Virus record (IMG/VR): IMGVR_UViG_3300011185_000005
Span: 1 to 34,648 of that record
Reading direction: 5' to 3' (one strand)
From: a virus
Length of the DNA: 34,648 nucleotides
How positions within the stretch are numbered: position 1 is the first letter of the stretch; each line of letters starts with the position of its first letter. A program made the position numbers and the translations under genes. The notes under the pieces are model-generated. The model was not told where the DNA came from. It saw only the letters and a list, made by a program, of their open reading frames with translations, and did no database searches. This document shows positions 9,131 to 34,648 of this stretch, piece after piece.

Positions 9131-9841
9131 TTAACCGCCATCCCAGCTTGGAATCCAGCCACTACCTGCGCCGCCACCGCCGCCACCACCGCCACCAGAT
9201 CCTCCACCAGAGCCTCCATTTCTTTCTTTCTTACCCCAGAGAATACTCACAGCTTGAGAGCCGATAAGGATCTGATCGTAAGAAGTGTCAGCAAGATCTG
9301 GAAACTTCCTAGCTAAATAATTCTTTGATGTTAGTAAGGATCGTGTAAGATCAAGAGACCCCATAGGTGATGCACCTTCAAGCTTGATTGAAATCTCTTC
9401 GCTTGGCGATATTCGATATTCAATATTGTCCAAAAAGCCTTTATAGACAGTAAGAAATTCCCTGACAGGCTCACCCGGCTCAGCGCCATTAATAGGTGAA
9501 TCAGTTGTATTTAAAAAGCCTGCCTTAACAATCATATCTGTACCTGAAAAAGTACCGTTAGAAATCTTCCCTCTGAGTTCAAACTCAGGGTCAGCTAAAA
9601 GAATAGTGTAAGAATCTCTATCTAAGATTTCAGAAAGTCTAGGTGGATCGATTTGTAATGTACCATTCTCAGGACTATAGACATCACCCTCATCTGTAAT
9701 CGCGTAAGGTAATGTTGTATACAAAAGTTCATAGGAAGGGACCCCGTTAACTGCAGCTGTAGGCCCAACCTTGACCATAAGAAAAGATACTACTTTTTCA
9801 CTTTGCATAATATTTAATAAAGTATTGCTAATATTTCTCAT
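9131..9841 (-). CDS. Minor tail tip protein with poly-Gly C terminus
   Basis: This 236-residue protein lies between the distal tail gene and the J-like gene, the position of hub assembly proteins such as lambda gpL/gpK or DUF2163-type proteins. The body is beta-rich and contains an LxxYKGFLDNIEY segment and the C-terminal TSYDQILIG...ILWGKK pattern seen in related tail-hub proteins. The last 30 or so residues are almost entirely Gly and Ser and end in GSGWIPSWDGG, a flexible tail probably buried or used for docking. Its ATG overlaps the upstream stop as TAATG. The exact homologue is not certain. Confidence 0.72.
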   Translation of the reverse strand: MRNISNTLLNIMQSEKVVSFLMVKVGPTAAVNGVPSYELLYTTLPYAITDEGDVYSPENGTLQIDPPRLSEILDRDSYTILLADPEFELRGKISNGTFSGTDMIVKAGFLNTTDSPINGAEPGEPVREFLTVYKGFLDNIEYRISPSEEISIKLEGASPMGSLDLTRSLLTSKNYLARKFPDLADTSYDQILIGSQAVSILWGKKERNGGSGGGSGGGGGGGGGAGSGWIPSWDGG

Positions 9842-10539
9842 TATAAAGCCTCCACCAATCTAATACGAGGGGATTCTACCAATACACCGTCTTGATACGA
9901 AAGTCCAGATGCTTGGTCACTATCATAATAGCATTTCATAGCGCAATTTTTACCAAATCGTATAAAACTGTTGTCAGGTACATCTTGCATTAATCTAGGG
10001 AAGAGGGTCATTGTACCATTAGCCCAAGGCACTTCTGTTGCTAAGTAAAGCTTATCATGATTACCAAACTGAATGAAATCACCCTTTGCAATTAATGAAC
10101 CGGGATTTCCATTAAAAGCAATTGCATCTCCACCTGCTGTTGCTGCACTTGTCGTAATTCCCGTGCCTCTTGACCATATAAATTTCGAATTGTCCTGCAT
10201 ATCTTCTTCTTGAAGACTCGTAAGGTAGCTTTCTTCACTAATGTCCGAATATCGCCTCTTCTTAACAAGCAGAGGGGGTCTAATGAAAATCTCTGTGTCA
10301 ACATCATTTGTAACATTGTGAATGAAAAAATCTACAAAATAATTTGTATCGAAAATTGCTGTCTCTATCTCCCATCTCTGAGAAATCGTACTAGAAACTA
10401 TCCTACGCAAGGATAATGTATCAGAACGTGAAATCACTCTTGCAGATCGAATACTCGTCTGCGCTGCAAATTGTGCAATAATTTGACTGTCTGAGCCATT
10501 GGATTCACTTGACGTATTAATGTCCAAAATGCCGAACAT
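9841..10539 (-). CDS. Distal tail protein (Dit/gpM-like)
   Basis: This 232-residue, mostly beta-strand protein is encoded immediately after the tape measure, where siphophages keep the distal tail or minor tail protein. It has no membrane segment or signal peptide. The region about 120-200 contains glycine-rich turns and an 'LIAKGDFIQFGNHDKLYLAT' stretch typical of small beta domains in tail hub proteins, and a KCYYDSDQASGLSYQDG stretch near the end. AAGGAGCC precedes the ATG directly after a strong terminator. It shares a TAATG overlap with the next gene. The function is by gene order and fold impression. Confidence 0.65.
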   Translation of the reverse strand: MFGILDINTSSESNGSDSQIIAQFAAQTSIRSARVISRSDTLSLRRIVSSTISQRWEIETAIFDTNYFVDFFIHNVTNDVDTEIFIRPPLLVKKRRYSDISEESYLTSLQEEDMQDNSKFIWSRGTGITTSAATAGGDAIAFNGNPGSLIAKGDFIQFGNHDKLYLATEVPWANGTMTLFPRLMQDVPDNSFIRFGKNCAMKCYYDSDQASGLSYQDGVLVESPRIRLVEAL

Positions 10540-22145: not shown

Positions 22146-23330
22146 TTACTGGTGAAACACCGGAAGGATACCCAGAGTGAGAGCAGAAGCAGTCTTACGC
22201 TCCCAAGTACCAGTCACATCGGCCAACGCATCGGTAAGGCCAGTAACAGCGGTTGGAGTACCACTTTCAACACCATACATATATTCAGCATCAGACGGGA
22301 ACTTCTCTTCATCACCGACCCAGTTATAACCAGCCGGATGATAGATATTGCCCCAACGATACCAGATTTCAGTCTTACCGCCACCCTTAAAGGCAGAAGC
22401 ATCCCGATCAATTTCGACCGGAGTATCAATACTCAAGGCATTCATCGAAATAGCACCCGGAAGTACAATAAAGGTTGTAAGGTCACCTACAAGATCTACA
22501 CCTGCTCCAGTATTCAGCTTCGTAAGCTGAGCAGAGGAAAGGCTCTGCATTGCGCGTGTAGGGATGAGACGGAACTTACCTTCGAAGATAGTGTTAAATT
22601 CAACATTACCATCTGTGACACGATCCGAATCAACCAGATTTGCAGCACGCAAAGATGCCATAACACGCGGCGATGCCATCAAGTAAGCATATTCAGGTTC
22701 ATAATCCTTGAATGCCATACCCATCGCATCTAAGAAGCCTGTAGCACGCTGTGCACCGATATTAGCGGTACTAGCAGCGCTGATAACACCTTCAGCACCT
22801 AGATCGACATAAAAGCCGTAACGTGAGTCTGTAGGGTCATTCTCGAATGTCTGACCACCGAGACCAGCTTGACCGGAACCGGCAGCAGCACCGTTAATGA
22901 CTTCAGAAATGGTAACACCCTTACAAACAGCAAGGACGCTATTGTGCTCATCTCTGTTACGAGTCTCGCCAAAGTCACGAGTGATCTTCTTAAATTTATC
23001 TTCCTGTGTGATTACACTCTGAAGATTAACTTTTTCAGAACCATGCGTACGGGCTGTCTTGATATAGCGTAAGAAAGCCGAGCTGATATCTGTAGTTACA
23101 CCATCGGTAGAGTCTGTCAAAGAGCCTACGTTAATAGTGGGGTTCAAAGGCTGATGCCACCGCATCTGACCCATATAGGTTTCAGTATCGGTATTCACAT
23201 CAGGGTTAGAGCTTACAATACCAGTGCTTGAGATCTTTCGAGCGTTGGTATAAGCTTCGTCAGAGTACTGACCAAGTACAGACTGCAGTACAAACTGGTC
23301 AGCCCCTGCAAGGTTATCAATTGCGGACAT
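22146..23330 (-). CDS. Major capsid protein
   Basis: This encodes 394 residues. It is located after the scaffold and before the connectors, the canonical place for an HK97-fold capsid protein. Features include an N-terminal arm (1-70), a FLRYIKTARTHGSEKVNLQSV helix, many Gly/Ala-rich turns (GAAAGSGQAGLGG), the spine-like helix ATGFLDAMGMAFKDY, an A-domain segment YLMASPRVMASLRAANLVDSD, and TEIWYRWGNIYHPAGYNW near the C terminus. There is no signal peptide and no protease domain. AAGGAA fits the start. Codon choice looks well balanced, consistent with high expression. A subfamily could not be assigned from the sequence alone. Confidence 0.88.
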   Translation of the reverse strand: MSAIDNLAGADQFVLQSVLGQYSDEAYTNARKISSTGIVSSNPDVNTDTETYMGQMRWHQPLNPTINVGSLTDSTDGVTTDISSAFLRYIKTARTHGSEKVNLQSVITQEDKFKKITRDFGETRNRDEHNSVLAVCKGVTISEVINGAAAGSGQAGLGGQTFENDPTDSRYGFYVDLGAEGVISAASTANIGAQRATGFLDAMGMAFKDYEPEYAYLMASPRVMASLRAANLVDSDRVTDGNVEFNTIFEGKFRLIPTRAMQSLSSAQLTKLNTGAGVDLVGDLTTFIVLPGAISMNALSIDTPVEIDRDASAFKGGGKTEIWYRWGNIYHPAGYNWVGDEEKFPSDAEYMYGVESGTPTAVTGLTDALADVTGTWERKTASALTLGILPVFHQ

Positions 23331-23344
23331 TTAGAAATTCCTTT

Positions 23345-24034
23345 TCAAGATTTTTGCTGATTAGGTAATTTGCCCTGCCTGGCCGCATCGAAGGCTTCTT
23401 TCAACGGTCTGTTGAGGAAGTCTTTATCAGTGTTAGAGCCAAGAGGACTTTCTTTAAGCGTGCCTTGGCCTGTACCACCCGACGTAGGTTGCTTGAATAA
23501 GAATTTATTATTCTCATCTTTCACAAAAGTATCAACGTAATCTTTAATCGAAGCACCGTCTTTGGCTACCCATTCACCATTGTCATTCCTAACAAGGCTC
23601 TTTGTAATCTCTTGAACAGCCATGTCTCTTGCACGATCTCCTCGGAAGTCCTGAGAAGATAAGAGAGCATTTACTTGGTTATCACGCGTAAGCTCAGTAT
23701 TTTTACCTCTAAGGGCAGTTAATTCAGCAGTGAGATCTTCAATCTGTTTCTCCATTGCTTCCTTATGCTTACCCTCATTCTTGAGGCTTTCAATCTCAGC
23801 TTCACGTGCCTTCTCATCACGTTTTGCAAGCTCAACTTTAAGATCCTTGTTTTTCGAATCAAGAGCATTGAGCTTGTCTTTGATATCTTTTAGCGCTTCA
23901 TCTACACGCGCATTGACATCTTCTTTTGTAAATTTAGCATCCTCATTCCCCTCAGGGGTTTTCGGAGTAGCAGGCTTTTCTTCAGGCTTATCGCCTTCGT
24001 TGTCTTTCTCTAGGCTATCTTTTTCTTCAGCCAT
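23345..24034 (-). CDS. Capsid scaffold protein
   Basis: This encodes 229 residues. The start at 24034 (MAEEKDSLEK) is chosen because AGAGGA lies six bases upstream; an in-frame extension to 24106 runs through the hairpin region and lacks a site. Composition is highly charged (Lys, Glu, Asp). A long coiled coil at about 45-125 (LKDIKDKLNALDSKNKDLKV... and MEKQIEDLTAELTAL) is typical of GP20-like phage scaffolds. The C terminus (about 180-229) is basic (NRPLKEAFDAARQGKLPNQQK), the usual capsid-binding end. It lies immediately before the major capsid gene. It should guide procapsid assembly and then leave. Confidence 0.85.
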   Translation of the reverse strand: MAEEKDSLEKDNEGDKPEEKPATPKTPEGNEDAKFTKEDVNARVDEALKDIKDKLNALDSKNKDLKVELAKRDEKAREAEIESLKNEGKHKEAMEKQIEDLTAELTALRGKNTELTRDNQVNALLSSQDFRGDRARDMAVQEITKSLVRNDNGEWVAKDGASIKDYVDTFVKDENNKFLFKQPTSGGTGQGTLKESPLGSNTDKDFLNRPLKEAFDAARQGKLPNQQKS

Positions 24035-24059
24035 ATTGTCCTCTGAGTACAACTCAATA

Positions 24060-24090
24060 AAAGGGGTTGTAAAGGTACAACCTTTACAAG
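24060..24090 (-). terminator. Hairpin between MuF-polymerase and scaffold genes
   Basis: A perfect 9-bp stem (TTGTAAAGG with CCTTTACAA, 5-base loop) is followed by CCCCTTTT on the minus strand. The T run is short and offset by four C. It could be a weak terminator or a processing hairpin that separates the long polymerase gene from the abundant scaffold and capsid messages. A second, 5-bp hairpin (CACGT/ACGTG) lies just upstream. Confidence 0.5.
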
Positions 24091-24133
24091 TAAAGTAAAA
24101 TAACACGTATAATAACGTGGGTTAATTAAACAG

Positions 24134-27100
24134 CTATCCTACACCGTACCAGTAGTAATTTCCATCAAATTCGTCAGAAACTTCTTCTAAAACATCATCA
24201 ACAGTTAGAATATCCTCTTTAGTTAAAGTCTTTCCTGCAACTTTTGATCTACCAGCTATTGGAATTAAGCCAAGCTCAATTGCTTCATTTCTATATTGAT
24301 GGTAAACATTATTAGGAAGCCCTCGCCTCTTCATCTCTTTCAACGTTTCTTCAATAACATTTATCTCCATGGTCTCCGCGTAAATCTTTTTAAGAGCACG
24401 TCGAGCTTCAAGCATATCCCCGACATTAGTAAAGAAAGCATCGTGGATGGTTGAAGTAAATTTCTTAGCCTTACGTCCCCATTGATGAAATTTCTTTACA
24501 ATCACAGCGTCATTGCTGTGGTTACCATTGACCGCATAAGCAGTCTTTGCCTTAGCCAGATCAGCAACCTCACTGATAGTACCACTTTTGTTTATGAACT
24601 GTTCCCACCATGTTGCTTCCGTTCTATCAGGGACGTCAAGAATGTTCACAATCCAATTACCATCTTTGTCTCGATATGTGAGCCTTGTTTGGTATTTCTT
24701 CGAGAAAGACTGTTCTAACACTTTACCGTCGAAATTAACCCAAGGTGCAGATGTCCACGATTTAGGTAATTTATTTGCTTTAAAAACCTCTATACCGCCA
24801 GAGACAGGAATATCAAAAGGTTCTACCTTTAAATATGTTTTACCTGTTCTTCTAGTAGTAGGTGAGTCTGTCCCTAGAAGCAGGTTAGCAAGAGTACCGT
24901 TAGGGGTCCACCCGTTGATTTTCTTAAAGAAGGCTTCACTAACAGGTTCACCAGGCTTTAGCCCTAACGCTCTAGTTACTAAAGGAGGAAGTGTATAACG
25001 CTTTCCTCTTTCACCTGTTAATTTTATTTTTGCGATTGAGACCCAATCCATTGCTGAATTAGAAGGCTTTGAATTCTCAATAAAAGCATTAGAAAGTCTA
25101 CCGAGATATTTAGTGAAGTTTTGTAAAATAGGAACTCTCTCAGCGAGATGCCCACTCATTATCTTAGCAATATTATGAAAGTCTTGAGGAGTAACGACTC
25201 TTTCATAATTCTTAGTCATCTTTTCAAGAACTTCTCTAGTATCAGGTGATAAGAAATAAAGCTCTTCCATAAGCTCATCACCAGGTGACATACCTTTATC
25301 AAAAAGGTCTTTGACTTGTTTTCTTAAGTTCATAAGTTCAGTGTAAGTATCAGGATCAAACTTTTTGTATCTAGCTGCACGTCCTGATATCTGATCTAAT
25401 ACCTTGTCTCTATCAACAGCCCTGACAACAAGAACATTAGAATCTACATCTAAAATTTTAGCTAATTTTCCTTCGACATTTAATGCGCCTGTTTTCTGTC
25501 CCGCTCCATATAGCGTGACCATATTCTGGGCCTTTGCAGCTTTCCGTAAATCTTTTTCTGATAAGCCAAGCCTCTTGTTGATTTCCTTGAAGCGTGGGTC
25601 ATTAAATGTTTCAGCAGCAATCTCGTCATAGAGTCGTCTCTTTTGATCAGTATTAACTACATTAGAGAGTTCTGCTAATTGTCGATTTCTAGTGGTAAGC
25701 GCAATAATCTGAGCACCAGAAGATGAAGCATCTTGTTCAAGCGCCAAAGCAGTACGATACTGATTAAGGGATGAAAGATCGCCTCGATTCTCAATTAAGT
25801 AATTATCAATTTTAGCTATCTCAATTGCAAATCTAAAGAATTTAGCTTGTTCTTCCGGATCTATTTCCAGCACTAATCTGTTGGTAAGTATCTCACGAAC
25901 ATCTTGTGGCTTACCATTAAGCATCTTGTTACCGATTTTAACCATCTCAGGGTGATATTTGGCTGCAATCGCTTGTCTACCTTTTATAGTTAAGCTATTG
26001 AATTTACCTTCCAAAGTATCACTAAGACCTCCTAAGAAAGCACCAATCTGATCGTTTAGGTTTTTATACCCATTGATGCCTAAAATACCTTCTTTAGCAG
26101 TATTTAAAAATGGCCTAAATGCTTCGCCAGACTGAGGACCAATAAGACCCCTATCGTAGATACGAGCCCTGTGATCAATAAATGGGTGATTAGCAAACGC
26201 CTTTCCGTTCCCTCGAAGCCATTCCATTGCTTTGAATCTTTCATAAGTATCTCCTCTAGATGCCATGTAAGTACGATAACCATTCAGATCATCATAATAC
26301 GCTGCCTTACCTTTATCATCTTTAAAGTAAAGTAAACGCATCATGAAATCATAAAAGTCAGTGTCAATCTTATATTCAGCCTGTGCTGCCCAGTTCAATG
26401 CATCTACAAATTCACCGTCTATAAAAGAATCAGGAAAATTACTAAAGCTTCTAGTAGAAGTAATTGGGATACGCGTATCATAATAGATACCGGGGGCTTC
26501 TCTGACGAAGTAGGTCTTATATCCTTTTCTAAAGTAAAGTCTTTGTGACTTACTTACAACACCTACTCTTAACCCTACTTCTACTTTTCTTGTAACCTTA
26601 GCATACTCTTGTATTCTAGGGTCAACAATTCTGAGAGTATACGCAAAAGTATCATAATAAGGTCCAAAGTAACGACCGCTCAGAGAATTCTTAAGTCTTT
26701 GTTTTTGAACACCAAATGTCTCTAATTTAAAGAATTTACTGACGTTCTTGCTTTCAAGTAAGCGCATCCCTAGTGTATACCATTCGCGCTTGCTACCGTT
26801 GTAATTTGCAAGGTTATATAAGTCTCTTCCTAGTGAAACTGCAAAGGCATCTCGATCAGGGGAGTCGGCTAATGAAAGCCTGTTAGCAAACTTAAGATAA
26901 AATTGCTGCAAATCTCTCTCAGTCATTCTTTTATATAGCTTACGCGGTATTCTTCTATCAAATACATTACGAAGCTCCAAAGCTATTTTAGGGGCAACCC
27001 TTGATTCCCACTTGTTCTTGGCTTTAATGTTACTCACTAAGCCATCAGCAAGATCATCTAATTGAGTTGCACCTAGAACAGGGTCTAAGTAGTTGTCAAG

Positions 27101-28753
27101 TTTTAATCTCTTAAGAGCATCCGACTGAGAACGTAATGCAGTTTCGATGGAATCCGAAACATTCATCACATCAAACTTAATTTGACTGTTCAAAACTGCT
27201 TTAAAGTTAATCCAAGGCTCAGGGTTCTTTCGATATCTTGTAAACACGATTCTCAGATTATCGACTATAACTGCTCTTTGGTTAACACCTAGGGTTCCCG
27301 CTAACCTCGTATTAATGTCAGTAATAAAATCTTTATCTGCTTGCTTTAGGACATCAGTCTCTTTGACTAATCGAAGATTGTTGTTCAAGACATGTGGCGC
27401 AGGCTGGTAGATTCTTGAGTCTTCATAGCGTCGAGTGACAGGGTTAAAGATCATTTGACTTTCTTGAGGAGGACTTTTAAGTACACCTGTTTGTCTGGTC
27501 TTTTTACCTTGGATTGTGATACCTCTGTAATTAGTCAGAGAGAGTGTACCACTAAGGTCACCTGCTTGCAATTTATAATACTTTGTAAGGTTAGCTGCTA
27601 ACTCACTATCACCAAGCAAATCATCTGGAGTACTTGCACCTAAATTCATCTGGTCCAATTCTTCTCTAGCTGAATCAAATTTTCTTTTGACTGTATCAGG
27701 TGTATATTTTTGAGCAGTTAATCTAGCAAGATCTCGAATACCTATTGACTGGCCATTAACATTTGTAAATTTATTTACTTCAAACTTACCTGAATTGAAG
27801 GTATCAACTGCATTTTGAGAGCCTAAATGTCTTATTTGTACCGGTGTAGGTTGTCTGAAAAGCCACTGACTATAAGTCTCCTTACTTGGGACTAGTCCGT
27901 CATAGTACGCTTTTTGTTTCTCAGTTAATCCTGCTAAGTTTCTTTGACGCACATAAGCCAGATTTTCAAGCTTAGTGAGATCATTCCAATGCTTTACAAT
28001 AGGGACTGTAGTTGAACGACACTGCCAATGCGCAGGAGGAAGAAAGTCTACTTCACCTACATTGTATATCTTACCGTCTCTGTGAATACAAATCTTAGTA
28101 GTACGGGTATCTAGTGTGGCTATGTATTGCCATCCTCGTAACGCGTCTTTATTAGCGTCATAGACTTCATGATCTGCTTGAGCGTAAACCGAAGTTGTAG
28201 CGGTTGCTACCAATGACAGAGATTGTGCCCTAGACATTTTAGTAGCACGTCCCTTACGGATATCTAGCGCGATCTCTTTAGAGTTTTGTCCTTTTGAGAT
28301 GCCTCTTCTAATTAGTTGAGAGATACGTTTACGTTCGTTATTCTCAATACCTTTCCAACCATTCTCTAGTGTATTGTTTTTATAAAGGGGTCGCTTAAGG
28401 ACGAGATCTTCAGATACTCTCCGATTAGGTCTTTGAGTGCGCCAAATGCGGCCTACTTTACTTTCAATATTCTGATAAGCAAAAGAAATCTGATTGCTTG
28501 CTAAATCCAACAGACTTTTTTTAGAAACATCTGAAAGACCTTTATACGTTTTACTCAGTTGAATGTCAATAGCACGTTGTAAGCGCTTTCTTGCAGCAGG
28601 TGTTAACTCACCTTTTTCTACAAGCTCAGCAAGCTTAACCTGGTGACTATCTAGTATCACTGACACTTTATCGCTAATACGTTTTTCGTATAGCCTTGTC
28701 ATTGCGGCCCTATCGACTATAGAGTCATAGAGCTCAGTGTTCAGATTAGACAT
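24134..28753 (-). CDS. MuF head protein fused to T7/N4-type single-subunit RNA polymerase
   Basis: This encodes 1539 residues, starting 10 bases after the portal gene with AGGTAA upstream. Residues about 130-260 match the Mu gpF/SPP1 gp7 minor head domain: 'RGWQYIATLDTRTTKICIHR' (Asp215) and PPAHWQCR (His242, Cys245). The part from about 780 on carries the single-subunit RNA polymerase core. It shows ALNWAAQAEYKI (Asn787), FANHPFIDHRARIY (Arg862, Arg864, Tyr866, as T7 Arg423/425/Tyr427), motif A DASSSGAQ (Asp1008, as T7 Asp537), motif B R-4-K-4-M-4-YG (Arg1070, Lys1074, Met1078, Tyr1082, Gly1083, as T7 627/631/635/639/640) and motif C HDAFF (His1437, Asp1438, as T7 811/812). All catalytic residues are present. 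The region 270-780 is unassigned and probably the polymerase N-terminal domain. It is likely packaged and ejected with DNA. Confidence 0.93.
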   Translation of the reverse strand: MSNLNTELYDSIVDRAAMTRLYEKRISDKVSVILDSHQVKLAELVEKGELTPAARKRLQRAIDIQLSKTYKGLSDVSKKSLLDLASNQISFAYQNIESKVGRIWRTQRPNRRVSEDLVLKRPLYKNNTLENGWKGIENNERKRISQLIRRGISKGQNSKEIALDIRKGRATKMSRAQSLSLVATATTSVYAQADHEVYDANKDALRGWQYIATLDTRTTKICIHRDGKIYNVGEVDFLPPAHWQCRSTTVPIVKHWNDLTKLENLAYVRQRNLAGLTEKQKAYYDGLVPSKETYSQWLFRQPTPVQIRHLGSQNAVDTFNSGKFEVNKFTNVNGQSIGIRDLARLTAQKYTPDTVKRKFDSAREELDQMNLGASTPDDLLGDSELAANLTKYYKLQAGDLSGTLSLTNYRGITIQGKKTRQTGVLKSPPQESQMIFNPVTRRYEDSRIYQPAPHVLNNNLRLVKETDVLKQADKDFITDINTRLAGTLGVNQRAVIVDNLRIVFTRYRKNPEPWINFKAVLNSQIKFDVMNVSDSIETALRSQSDALKRLKLDNYLDPVLGATQLDDLADGLVSNIKAKNKWESRVAPKIALELRNVFDRRIPRKLYKRMTERDLQQFYLKFANRLSLADSPDRDAFAVSLGRDLYNLANYNGSKREWYTLGMRLLESKNVSKFFKLETFGVQKQRLKNSLSGRYFGPYYDTFAYTLRIVDPRIQEYAKVTRKVEVGLRVGVVSKSQRLYFRKGYKTYFVREAPGIYYDTRIPITSTRSFSNFPDSFIDGEFVDALNWAAQAEYKIDTDFYDFMMRLLYFKDDKGKAAYYDDLNGYRTYMASRGDTYERFKAMEWLRGNGKAFANHPFIDHRARIYDRGLIGPQSGEAFRPFLNTAKEGILGINGYKNLNDQIGAFLGGLSDTLEGKFNSLTIKGRQAIAAKYHPEMVKIGNKMLNGKPQDVREILTNRLVLEIDPEEQAKFFRFAIEIAKIDNYLIENRGDLSSLNQYRTALALEQDASSSGAQIIALTTRNRQLAELSNVVNTDQKRRLYDEIAAETFNDPRFKEINKRLGLSEKDLRKAAKAQNMVTLYGAGQKTGALNVEGKLAKILDVDSNVLVVRAVDRDKVLDQISGRAARYKKFDPDTYTELMNLRKQVKDLFDKGMSPGDELMEELYFLSPDTREVLEKMTKNYERVVTPQDFHNIAKIMSGHLAERVPILQNFTKYLGRLSNAFIENSKPSNSAMDWVSIAKIKLTGERGKRYTLPPLVTRALGLKPGEPVSEAFFKKINGWTPNGTLANLLLGTDSPTTRRTGKTYLKVEPFDIPVSGGIEVFKANKLPKSWTSAPWVNFDGKVLEQSFSKKYQTRLTYRDKDGNWIVNILDVPDRTEATWWEQFINKSGTISEVADLAKAKTAYAVNGNHSNDAVIVKKFHQWGRKAKKFTSTIHDAFFTNVGDMLEARRALKKIYAETMEINVIEETLKEMKRRGLPNNVYHQYRNEAIELGLIPIAGRSKVAGKTLTKEDILTVDDVLEEVSDEFDGNYYWYGVG

Positions 28754-28763
28754 TTAAGTTACC

Positions 28764-30314
28764 TCATAAGGTATCCACAAAATCGAGATTCGGTTTGGGA
28801 TTGATAGGGTTTGTTTCGTCTTCGACCATCTCTTCTTTACCCTTAGCATCATCATAATCGCCAGGAATAAGGTCATTTTGTTTGACAATAAGGAGCCACA
28901 AGGAACGCGGAATATACCCTGCCTCGTACCATTCGGTAACAAGACGTAGCCAATCTGCTCCAAGAGGAATCGGATTGAAGTCGGAAGACAATGTAAAATT
29001 AACATCCCCTGGCTCGAGATCTAATTTATATTTCCAGGATATCATTGTAGCGATAATATTCTTAATAGTATCACTAGTCTTAACATTAAGAGAACCTAAT
29101 TGTGCATTTTGAGACGCATTCCTGATTTCAAGTGCAACACCTGACTGTTCTACTTCAGGAGATAACATCCTAACCCCAAGCTTAGCCATCTCTTCAATAT
29201 TAGCCGAAATAGCCTTTTCCATGTCATTAAGGGAATCAGTAGGAGTTCTTAAAGTCTCTATTTCATCTTCTTTACCAATTTTAAGCCACGACCCTAACCC
29301 TGCATCTACGAGAGCATCGAAGTCCTCATCATTCATATCAGACTTCACAATTGGGGTATAAGTAGCTGCACCGTATAAAAGATGATTACGTCTACTGAGC
29401 TTGTTATAGAGGGCTACTTCTTTATTGACAAGTGTTAAGATTATCGGCTTATTAGGCTTCATATCACCATTTAGAGGCCAAACAGGGATATATTGTAGTG
29501 CTTCCCCATTTACTCTATAATGAATTACTTCGCCACGTTGCTTAAAGTGCTTCTCAGCATTTTCAGGATCTTTCTCTTTCTTCCTTCCTGCGATTACATT
29601 AATGTTTGTCTCTTTATTTTCTCTCTCAAAAACTCTTACTTGATAGTCACCCTTTTTATTTAATTCATGAACCCAAACTGTCTCTACATAGTCAGGATGG
29701 AATTCATTTTCACCTTCTTTTTCTATAAGACCTTTTACAATAATTCTTGTAAGAGCCTTTTCGCCACGTTTATTTTTCCCAAATCGCCAATTGATTACTG
29801 TTTCAGCGGGCCAAAGGACTGGATAAGGACAAGCAGGAATATCTTCCCCATCCTCCTCGTCGGCTATAGAAGGCATGTCTAAATGTATCCATGTACTGCC
29901 TGTCTGTAACTCTTCCCATAATGCTTCATCTAGAAAGGACATGAGCGGTCTACTGTCTTCCGCAAAATCATTCAAGATCCAATTAGCAGCTTCAGGAGGA
30001 ATCTTATCGCCTAGTTCTAAGGAAGGTGCCTTACGAAGTAACCCACCAACCATCATTTTAGTGAATTCAGACACAATACCCGGAAGTTCAGCTTCACCTT
30101 GATACAGTAGATACTGTTCAACCGTCATCTTAGGTGAAAAGGGAAGAAGTAAAGCTTTTAAATTAGGTGCGCTAGTGGCTACATCATATGCCTTAGCTTC
30201 CTCTTCACCGCCGCAAACTGCTCTAGTCTTTTTCCAAATAGGATAGACTGATAAGTATTCAGCATTTGGGTCTGAAACTGTTCTTTGTTTGTCTACAGCG
30301 TTTTTAGTGACCAT
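28764..30314 (-). CDS. Portal protein, DUF4055-type
   Basis: This encodes 516 residues. The N terminus fits the DUF4055 portal group: NAEYLSVYPIWKKTRAVCGG near 18-37, an LxxF....YxxYxxxAELPG region, then MMVGGLLRKAP near 87-97. A Trp-rich segment (NWRFGKNKRGEKALTRIIVKG) and the helix-rich stem/crown (SANIEEMAKLGVRMLSPEVE...RNASQNAQLGSLNVKTSDTI) follow. The portal forms the dodecameric DNA gate, initiates head assembly and binds MuF proteins. One base separates its ATG from the previous stop (TAAaATG), with AAGGGC as ribosome binding site. The next gene encodes the MuF-polymerase fusion. Confidence 0.9.
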   Translation of the reverse strand: MVTKNAVDKQRTVSDPNAEYLSVYPIWKKTRAVCGGEEEAKAYDVATSAPNLKALLLPFSPKMTVEQYLLYQGEAELPGIVSEFTKMMVGGLLRKAPSLELGDKIPPEAANWILNDFAEDSRPLMSFLDEALWEELQTGSTWIHLDMPSIADEEDGEDIPACPYPVLWPAETVINWRFGKNKRGEKALTRIIVKGLIEKEGENEFHPDYVETVWVHELNKKGDYQVRVFERENKETNINVIAGRKKEKDPENAEKHFKQRGEVIHYRVNGEALQYIPVWPLNGDMKPNKPIILTLVNKEVALYNKLSRRNHLLYGAATYTPIVKSDMNDEDFDALVDAGLGSWLKIGKEDEIETLRTPTDSLNDMEKAISANIEEMAKLGVRMLSPEVEQSGVALEIRNASQNAQLGSLNVKTSDTIKNIIATMISWKYKLDLEPGDVNFTLSSDFNPIPLGADWLRLVTEWYEAGYIPRSLWLLIVKQNDLIPGDYDDAKGKEEMVEDETNPINPKPNLDFVDTL

Positions 30315-33834: not shown

Positions 33835-33941
33835 GGAGTGTACTCCGAAGCTAAGATTATTGGTTCCCAGTAGCGATCAAAAGTAGCATCACGACCGGGT
33901 TCTTGAGTGTTACCTGCTGGTATTACTGCTAATAGGCTCAT
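33831..33941 (-). CDS. 36-residue microprotein
   Basis: ATG at 33941 overlaps the LRR gene's TGA as ATGA, and its own TGA overlaps the next gene's ATG in the same way (33831-33834). The 36 codons thus fill the gap exactly. The sequence has a hydrophobic start (SLLAVIPAG) and a polar, aromatic middle (RDATFDRYWEP), ending IILASEYTP. Translational coupling on both sides is strong evidence for expression. No family was recognised. The segment may link the tail-type LRR protein and the outer membrane protein functionally. Confidence 0.6.
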   Translation of the reverse strand: MSLLAVIPAGNTQEPGRDATFDRYWEPIILASEYTP

Positions 33942-34648
33942 GAGTTCACCGTCACGTACCAGCCACGAGCTTCAAGGTTAGATTTAGCTGCTAGCCCGGT
34001 GGCTGATGGCGCTGCGTTTGTGCCGCCGTTTAGCAGCACGGTTCCATAGCTATCGCCAGCGGTGTCAAGCGATGTCAATACGCGATCGACCGCCGCTTCT
34101 ATCAGAGCGTTGCGATCCAGTCGCAGATTCGTCAGTCCGGGCGGTGTAGCAGTTCCCGCTACGTCAGTCAGGTTGTTGCGGTCTAGCTGGATATCGTTCC
34201 CCGAACTCCACCCAGACCAATCCGGGATCGTGCCGGTGAGTTCGTTTAAGTATAGCCAGATATAGCTCCCCGAACTCCACCCAGACCAATCCGGGATTGT
34301 TCCGGTGAGGTTGTTCATGTATAGCCGGATATTGTCCGCGGAACTCCATCCAGACCAATCGGGGATTGAACCAGTGAGGCTATTTTTGTATAGGTAGACG
34401 TATTGCCCGAAAGACCACCCGGACCAATCAGGGATTGTCCCTGTCAAATTGTTACCGTCTATTGCAAAATCGATCCCCGAAGACCACCCAGACCAATCAG
34501 GGATTGTTCCTGTCAGGCTGTTGTCGCTAAAGTAAAAATTACCACCCAAAGGCCACTCGGACCAATCAGGGAGAGCGCCAGTCACGTTAGTGTTGTATAA
34601 GTAGATAGCGTAGTCACCAGCACTGGCACTTAAATCGGCAAGCGCCGA
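33938..34648 (-). CDS. Leucine-rich-repeat tail-type protein (5' partial)
   Basis: The frame is open from the right edge, so the true start is outside the window; 236 residues are visible. Six complete tandem repeats of 23 residues follow the plant-type LRR pattern LTGxIPDWSGW...(Y/F)xLxxN(N/S). The last 75 or so residues (GTVLLNGGTNAAPSATGLAAKSNLEARGWYVTVN) form a C-terminal cap seen in many phage and bacterial LRR proteins. LRR surfaces bind proteins or glycans, so it could be an adhesion or receptor-binding protein. The gene looks richer in G+C than its neighbours and its repeats are nearly identical, which suggests recent expansion or acquisition. It is coupled to the 36-residue gene by ATGA. 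Confidence 0.8.
   Translation of the reverse strand, partial: SALADLSASAGDYAIYLYNTNVTGALPDWSEWPLGGNFYFSDNSLTGTIPDWSGWSSGIDFAIDGNNLTGTIPDWSGWSFGQYVYLYKNSLTGSIPDWSGWSSADNIRLYMNNLTGTIPDWSGWSSGSYIWLYLNELTGTIPDWSGWSSGNDIQLDRNNLTDVAGTATPPGLTNLRLDRNALIEAAVDRVLTSLDTAGDSYGTVLLNGGTNAAPSATGLAAKSNLEARGWYVTVNS
34172..34585 (-). repeat. 69-bp tandem repeats (six units) coding LRR
   Basis: Six 69-bp units encode 23-residue repeats. The DWSGW part is nearly invariant at DNA level, whereas the second half of each unit (the strand and loop, such as IDFAIDGN, YVYLYKNS, NIRLYMNN) is variable. This is the pattern expected when binding-surface residues diversify on a fixed scaffold. Unit number could vary by recombination or slippage. 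Confidence 0.85.

Follow-up and report, generated by a model that had tools for sequence, protein, structure and literature searches.

A head-morphogenesis protein of the MuF type and a complete T7-type single-subunit RNA polymerase are encoded as one polypeptide by an environmental phage. The gene for this fusion lies on the minus strand at positions 24134-28753 of the window, i.e. the whole 34,648-nucleotide stretch of DNA that was analysed, and its frame runs uninterrupted from ATG to stop over 1539 codons, encoding a protein of 1539 aa and 176 kDa. The MuF part occupies the first ~360 residues, with residues 1-361 (27671-28753, minus strand) matching the PHROG profile phrog_241 (E 1.2e-59) and, within these, residues 143-249 (28007-28327, minus strand) matching the PF04233 Phage_Mu_F core (E 1.8e-14, 54.9 bits against a curated cut-off of 29.6), as did 55 of 55 homologs. 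The polymerase part is recognized by the PF00940 RNA_pol profile, with 34.4 bits for the whole protein against a curated cut-off of 22 and the best stretch at residues 993-1104, and by the PHROG RNA polymerase profile phrog_414 at residues 858-1090 (E 2.2e-18). A T7-type fold is predicted for residues ~571-1539 (24137-27043, minus strand) on the basis of an AlphaFold2 model aligned with VIA-align to the T7 enzyme. The C-terminal toxin domain of the MuF polymorphic toxins is thus absent, the C-terminal part of the fusion being an RNA polymerase. Profile matches at both ends of a single open frame, a good structure model, ~140 conserved open homologs, and a conserved gene order together establish this architecture.

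The fusion is not unique to the window but is widespread among environmental phages. A pattern scan of IMG/VR found 149 loci, of which 80 were kept, and a profile-based scan confirmed at least 560 loci with relatives of the fusion. Full-length open frames are present in 105 homologs from many metagenomes, and no homolog lacking the MuF part was found among 140 open copies, contig edges excepted. The single frame break detected, near residue 449 in locus L125, is most probably a sequencing error. GC content by codon position is uniform across the window gene, which therefore shows no sign of a frame error, and this steadiness, together with the open homologs, led to the rejection of a chance juxtaposition or frame error as the origin of the fusion. 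All parts of the protein are under purifying selection, with dN/dS values of 0.05-0.09 for every part across 11 independent pairs and of ~0.05-0.06 for the polymerase part. When a collection in which 84,980 species are represented by a single genome each was screened, relatives were found in only one MAG, on two contigs; the main contig, at 74,179 bases, has the same size as one IMG/VR phage record, and a lytic life style is therefore likely for the fusion-bearing phages.

Comparisons with T7 RNA polymerase placed the catalytic residues, all encoded on the minus strand, in their expected order. By hhalign, R862-x-R864 (26162-26170) is the equivalent of T7 R423/R425 and D1008 (25730-25732) of the motif A catalytic aspartate D537; a profile alignment identified H1437-D1438 (24440-24445) as motif C with the catalytic aspartate corresponding to T7 D812. 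In motif B (25505-25546), the spacing R1070-K1074-M1078-Y1082-G1083 is the same as that of T7 R627-K631-M635-Y639-G640. Across the 140 open homologs, R862, R864, Y866, D1008, G1013, K1074, M1078, Y1082, G1083, H1437, and D1438 are identical wherever covered; the one exception in motif B is R1070, found as R in 131 homologs, Q in 4, K in 3, and A in 2. In other respects the two enzymes differ: identity in the structural alignment is ~17%, the distance from motif A to motif B is 66 residues in the fusion versus 94 in T7, and the interval from motif B to motif C is larger than in T7 and may carry an optional insertion of ~100 residues.

The AlphaFold2 model, which spans residues 430-1539 and was computed from 62 sequences of the window and the loci (pLDDT 82.2, pTM 0.81), displays the right-hand polymerase fold. 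With Foldseek, the top solved structures were the yeast mitochondrial and T7 RNA polymerases (E ~2e-17), and VIA-align superimposed the model on T7 RNA polymerase with a Z score of 26.3 (528 residues, 3.5 Å), on the human mitochondrial polymerase with Z ~23, and on the N4 mini-vRNAP with values from 16.1 down to 13.7. The T7 match begins near residue 571 and reaches the extreme C-terminus of the fusion, which aligns with T7 residue 883. In a library of viral structures, the best match was a 1463-residue entry, of the same length as the head protein of phage DSS3_VP1, followed by ordinary phage polymerases. By fold, then, the polymerase is predicted to be T7-type and not N4-type. A close kinship with the N4 vRNAP was considered and rejected, since an hhalign comparison to a single N4 sequence was not significant and the structure is nearer to T7. 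A model of residues 1-560 was weaker (pLDDT 78, pTM 0.54), and the best hit of a fold search with it reached only Z 5.5, which is no clear match; support for the MuF assignment therefore comes from the profiles. The fusion shares with T7 RNA polymerase its fold, all catalytic motifs, and a chain that ends at the polymerase C-terminus, and differs in being attached to a head protein. T7 polymerase requires its own C-terminus near the active site; placing MuF at the N-terminus is thus the order that leaves the enzyme intact.

These results bear on a first-pass annotation made from sequence alone, which had described one continuous frame joining an MuF domain at residues ~130-260 to a complete T7/N4-type polymerase. 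The continuous frame (on the minus strand, which had not been specified), the position of the MuF domain, and the completeness of the polymerase all held, as did the order and numbering of the diagnostic residues and the exact equivalence of motif B spacing with T7, with the qualification that Arg1070 is not invariant while the others tested are. The T7/N4 designation held only in part, the fold supporting T7 alone. Of the checks that the annotation proposed, structure prediction matched the polymerase part to T7 and gave no clear fold for residues 1-560, and the search for the same fusion in other phage genomes returned the IMG/VR loci described above. Two findings that it named as refutations, a frame error between the halves and a structure lacking the palm/fingers fold, were looked for; the first was contradicted by the open homologs and the steady codon-position GC, and the second by the right-hand fold of the model.

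Mobile elements in the gene are also consistent with an active enzyme. Group I introns favour conserved functional codons, and the sites found here, at active-site codons, agree with an active enzyme. In locus L080, a group I intron (RF00028, 76.3 bits; L080 5278-5592) interrupts motif B between codons 1079 and 1080, and in L136 another (RF00028, 56.3 bits; L136 10926-11132) is located at codon 1410/1411, shortly before motif C. The fusion gene of EBPR siphovirus 1 carries an HNH-bearing insertion at about the same motif B site (L082 ~23187-23949).

The gene is embedded in a head module. As the first-pass annotation had stated, it directly follows the gene for a 516-aa portal protein (28764-30314, minus strand; phrog_145, E 9.2e-53), from which it is separated by 10 nt, and it is followed directly by genes for a head scaffolding protein (23345-24106, minus strand; phrog_206, E 2.7e-11) and a 394-aa major head protein (22146-23330, minus strand; phrog_247, E 1.1e-18). 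This arrangement is conserved: 92 of 101 loci have a portal gene immediately upstream, and a capsid gene lies downstream in 96 of 96. None of the 15 near-complete genomes tested encodes any other MuF protein, and each has one copy of the fusion. A clear head protease was not found with PHROGs in the window head module (portal, scaffold, major capsid), from which it is inferred that the fusion protein probably stays uncleaved. The window also encodes a tape measure protein of 2780 aa as well as distal tail and J-type tail fibre proteins; these genes imply a long-tailed virion, as opposed to podovirus morphology, although the morphology itself has not been seen.

Among 50,697 phage records, only those of EBPR siphovirus 1 (55% identity, in two pieces) and of DSS3_VP1 and DSS3_PM1 (31.6%) covered at least 80% of the fusion. 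The deposited labels are 'head protein' plus 'hypothetical protein', 'head morphogenesis', or 'minor head protein-like protein', and the polymerase is unannotated. Both DSS3_VP1/DSS3_PM1 (Naomviridae, Noahvirus) and EBPR siphovirus 1 (gp47 and gp49) have the full-length architecture and the gene order of the window; unlike the window gene, that of EBPR siphovirus 1 is interrupted by the HNH-gene insertion, and DSS3_VP1 differs in its promoter-like motif. Outside the fusion family, the closest sequence matches were marginal (N4-type RNAP2, E 0.04). The first-pass annotation knew of no description of this architecture, and the full-text literature that was searched likewise contains no mention of a MuF-polymerase fusion, although an earlier remark in the primary DSS3_VP1 paper (Curr Biol 2021) cannot be excluded. 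A 2017 survey of polyvalent proteins that used both MuF and the N4 vRNAP as queries reported N4-like virion RNAPs only in N4-like phages (PMC5512222), and the packaging of a single-subunit RNA polymerase has been described as a hallmark of that group (PMC5512222, PMC7650795). Virion RNA polymerases as such are already known; if the fusion is one of them, what is new is the MuF adaptor, the polymerase lineage, and the virion type.

Two known systems invite comparison. N4 gp50 (Schitoviridae) resembles the fusion in being a single-subunit polymerase encoded in a virion-gene block of a genome with a further phage polymerase, and in its proposed early role. However, gp50 is ~3500 aa long with its own N- and C-terminal domains, lacks MuF, and belongs to a short-tailed phage, whereas the fusion has 1539 aa, an N-terminal MuF part, and a chain ending with the polymerase; in fold the fusion is also nearer to T7 (Z 26) than to N4 (Z at most 16). 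The promoters of gp50 are hairpins, for which the fusion offers only the putative promoter motif 2, described below, for comparison. With the MuF polymorphic toxins and SPP1 gp7 (PF04233), the fusion shares an N-terminal MuF domain encoded beside the portal gene and a large C-terminal cargo; where the polymorphic toxins end in a toxin domain, the fusion carries an RNA polymerase.

Every one of the 15 near-complete IMG/VR genomes (68-82 kb) also encodes a second, free T7-like polymerase, as do DSS3_VP1 and DSS3_PM1. The products are mostly 690-775 residues long, and intact IMG/VR copies are 34-38% identical to DSS3_VP1 gp080. In two genomes the gene is in two pieces separated by ~0.5-0.7 kb (G004 ~41158-41667, G015 ~67221-67906), and another intron or intein is a possible cause. 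EBPR siphovirus 1 is a partial record in which only the fusion is visible, and the 34.6-kb window is a fragment that stops short of where the free polymerase gene would be expected. The free and fusion polymerases of one phage show only weak, distant similarity, and a recent duplication of the free polymerase was therefore rejected.

Two classes of promoter-like motif were identified. Motif 1, CCCGTTAAATTAACCC, occurs in 3-7 copies each in 11 of 12 IMG/VR genomes examined, with 59 of 61 copies in sense orientation. A copy in the window, GCTGTTTAATTAACCC (24119-24134, minus strand; 3 mismatches to the consensus), lies just after the fusion gene, and with up to 3 mismatches the motif follows the fusion stop codon in 50 of 77 loci versus 0 of 419 control stretches. 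It is also found at the boundaries of structural and other blocks, and shortly upstream of the early block. DSS3_VP1 has instead ATAGGTTACGTTAAAGAGGGGGA; when up to 4 mismatches are allowed, this occurs 10 times in sense orientation and never in shuffled sequences, and the two motifs have a CGTTAAA core in common. The DSS3_VP1 motif resembles T7/SP6 promoters.

Motif 2 emerged from pooled intergenic enrichment in 12 related genomes, with the consensus GCGSAAAnnnn(G/C)NATCTTATATGA (also GCGSAAAnnnnGTATCTTATATGA). The window carries two exact 13-mer copies of GTATCTTATATGA, both putative early promoters on the minus strand, at 401-413 (with GCGG upstream) and 1435-1447, at the end leading into the missing early region. 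All 31 of 31 exact-core copies are in sense orientation, and the motif usually lies ~20-60 nt ahead of a Shine-Dalgarno sequence and start codon. In 12 of 12 genomes a copy is located no more than 7 kb upstream of the free polymerase gene, and the nearest one is 1.1-4.5 kb away; none of 20,000 random placements matched this, a significance that is overstated insofar as the genomes share ancestry and are not independent. The motif sequence is kept although the fusion proteins differ by ~40%. A sigma-70 reading of motif 2 was rejected, as upstream -35 matches were no better than in shuffled sequence. No motif 2 was found in DSS3_VP1. A surplus of sigma-70 promoters in the 60-75 kb part of that genome was also considered, but the count, 9 found versus 14.8 expected, is uninformative. 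Which polymerase uses motif 2 is unknown, and it contains no constant hairpin. In many copies, the sequence that directly follows the motif could fold into a small hairpin at the transcript 5' end. Two polymerases and two motif classes at different places fit a transcription cascade.

The fusion is likely a virion RNA polymerase for which MuF serves as packaging adaptor, with the caveat that packaging, ejection, and activity are all inferred. Each particle would then probably bring the enzyme into the cell and have its own genes read without the host polymerase. In the proposed mechanism, the fusion would be made late, together with the head proteins; its MuF half would bind the portal and, in the manner of SPP1 gp7, bring a single copy or a few inside the procapsid. 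On infection, it would pass down the long tail, either accompanying the DNA or preceding it, whereupon the polymerase half, its C-terminus free because MuF is at the N-terminus, would transcribe the first genes from motif 2, that of the free T7-like polymerase included. The free polymerase would then read the replication and structural blocks from motif 1, including new fusion for the next virions. Being encoded among late genes, the fusion could act early only by arriving with the virion. The scheme follows the logic of N4 with another adaptor, another polymerase lineage, and a long-tailed virion. Among MuF proteins, SPP1 gp7 has been studied in most depth: the portal directs it into the procapsid (PMC6316719), which receives a single copy or a few, and it contributes to the start of infection. 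MuF fusions are thought to use the same route (PMC6316719, PMC5576092, PMC5512222). The N4 vRNAP is packaged in 4 +/- 1 copies, is ejected, and transcribes early genes including those for RNAPII, which reads the middle genes (PMC12633501).

Loading of the polymerase into the virion, which the first-pass annotation had proposed, remains the best-supported reading; it draws on the status of the fusion as sole MuF protein, its late-type gene, the free polymerase, and the two motif classes, and is still an inference without virion proteomics, ejection, or activity data. Against it stand the need for a 176-kDa chain to cross a long tail, the fact that no MuF protein has been established to leave through the tail of a siphophage, and the missing fold match for residues 1-560; for the larger N4 enzyme, tail passage has been explained by unfolding models (PMC12633501). 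The weakest link is the assignment of motif 2 to the fusion and motif 1 to the free polymerase, which is only slightly more likely than not: motif 1 is also found shortly upstream of the early block, and DSS3_VP1 has no detected motif 2. The DNA of DSS3_VP1 contains deoxyuridine (PMC12697855). A virion polymerase adapted to dU promoters in this phage would parallel the PBS1/AR9-type phages.

Other explanations must be weighed against the virion-polymerase reading. The polymerase might work in the producing cell as a late enzyme, with the MuF fusion only coupling its synthesis, or bringing it to the procapsid, without delivery to the next cell; the location of the gene within the late structural block and the lack of evidence for ejection are compatible with this. 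It is nevertheless unlikely, as a free T7-like polymerase is already present, a polymerase with a late cellular role would be badly placed on a head-bound MuF protein at the portal, and the fusion is never split into two genes in ~140 homologs, the one frame break aside. A catalytically dead polymerase domain with a structural or DNA-binding role in the head could be invoked on the grounds of the divergent sequence and the insertions between motifs B and C. This is very unlikely in view of catalytic residues that are identical in every covering homolog, the low dN/dS of the polymerase part, and group I introns at active-site codons.

It is also conceivable that a virion polymerase acts mainly as a motor, pulling the genome in by transcribing the first-entering DNA, with gene expression secondary. 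Transcription-coupled genome entry is known for T7, and SPP1 virions without gp7 are only ~25% infectious (PMC6316719); yet the placement of motif 2 upstream of the free polymerase gene points to gene expression, and the motor reading, itself very improbable as the main function, does not exclude the virion-polymerase explanation. Finally, an assembly chimera or frame error joining neighbouring genes, for which only the L125 break could be cited, is all but excluded by the 105 full-length open homologs and the deposited isolates DSS3_VP1 and DSS3_PM1.

It is enticing to go further and regard these fusions as a second, independent way to package a single-subunit polymerase, starting a host-independent two-polymerase cascade (motif 2, then motif 1) in an abundant long-tailed lineage, a bolder reading that is more likely than not. 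If the polymerase is indeed loaded into virions, early transcription independent of the host might extend to long-tailed phages, and MuF, whose fusions have so far been known mainly with toxins and host-modifying enzymes, would be a general head-loading tag for large cargo. The two candidate promoter sets predict which genes are read first, and because the carriers number in the hundreds among environmental phages and one of them was isolated on a marine bacterium in culture, the idea is testable at once.

Two minor observations concern other sequences. In a sub-clade of loci, an in-frame insertion of ~235 residues (~700 nt) lies shortly after motif B (L074 ~9307-10008, and at the same place in L075-L078 and L081); an intein was considered and rejected, as Pfam gave no credible match to the inserted stretch of L074 and visual inspection showed no obvious intein hallmark, which leaves an unidentified domain within a polymerase. 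At the far end of the window, an open frame on the minus strand (33938-34648) contains about seven LTGTIPDWSGWSSG-type repeats, is leucine-rich-repeat-like, and runs past the window end.
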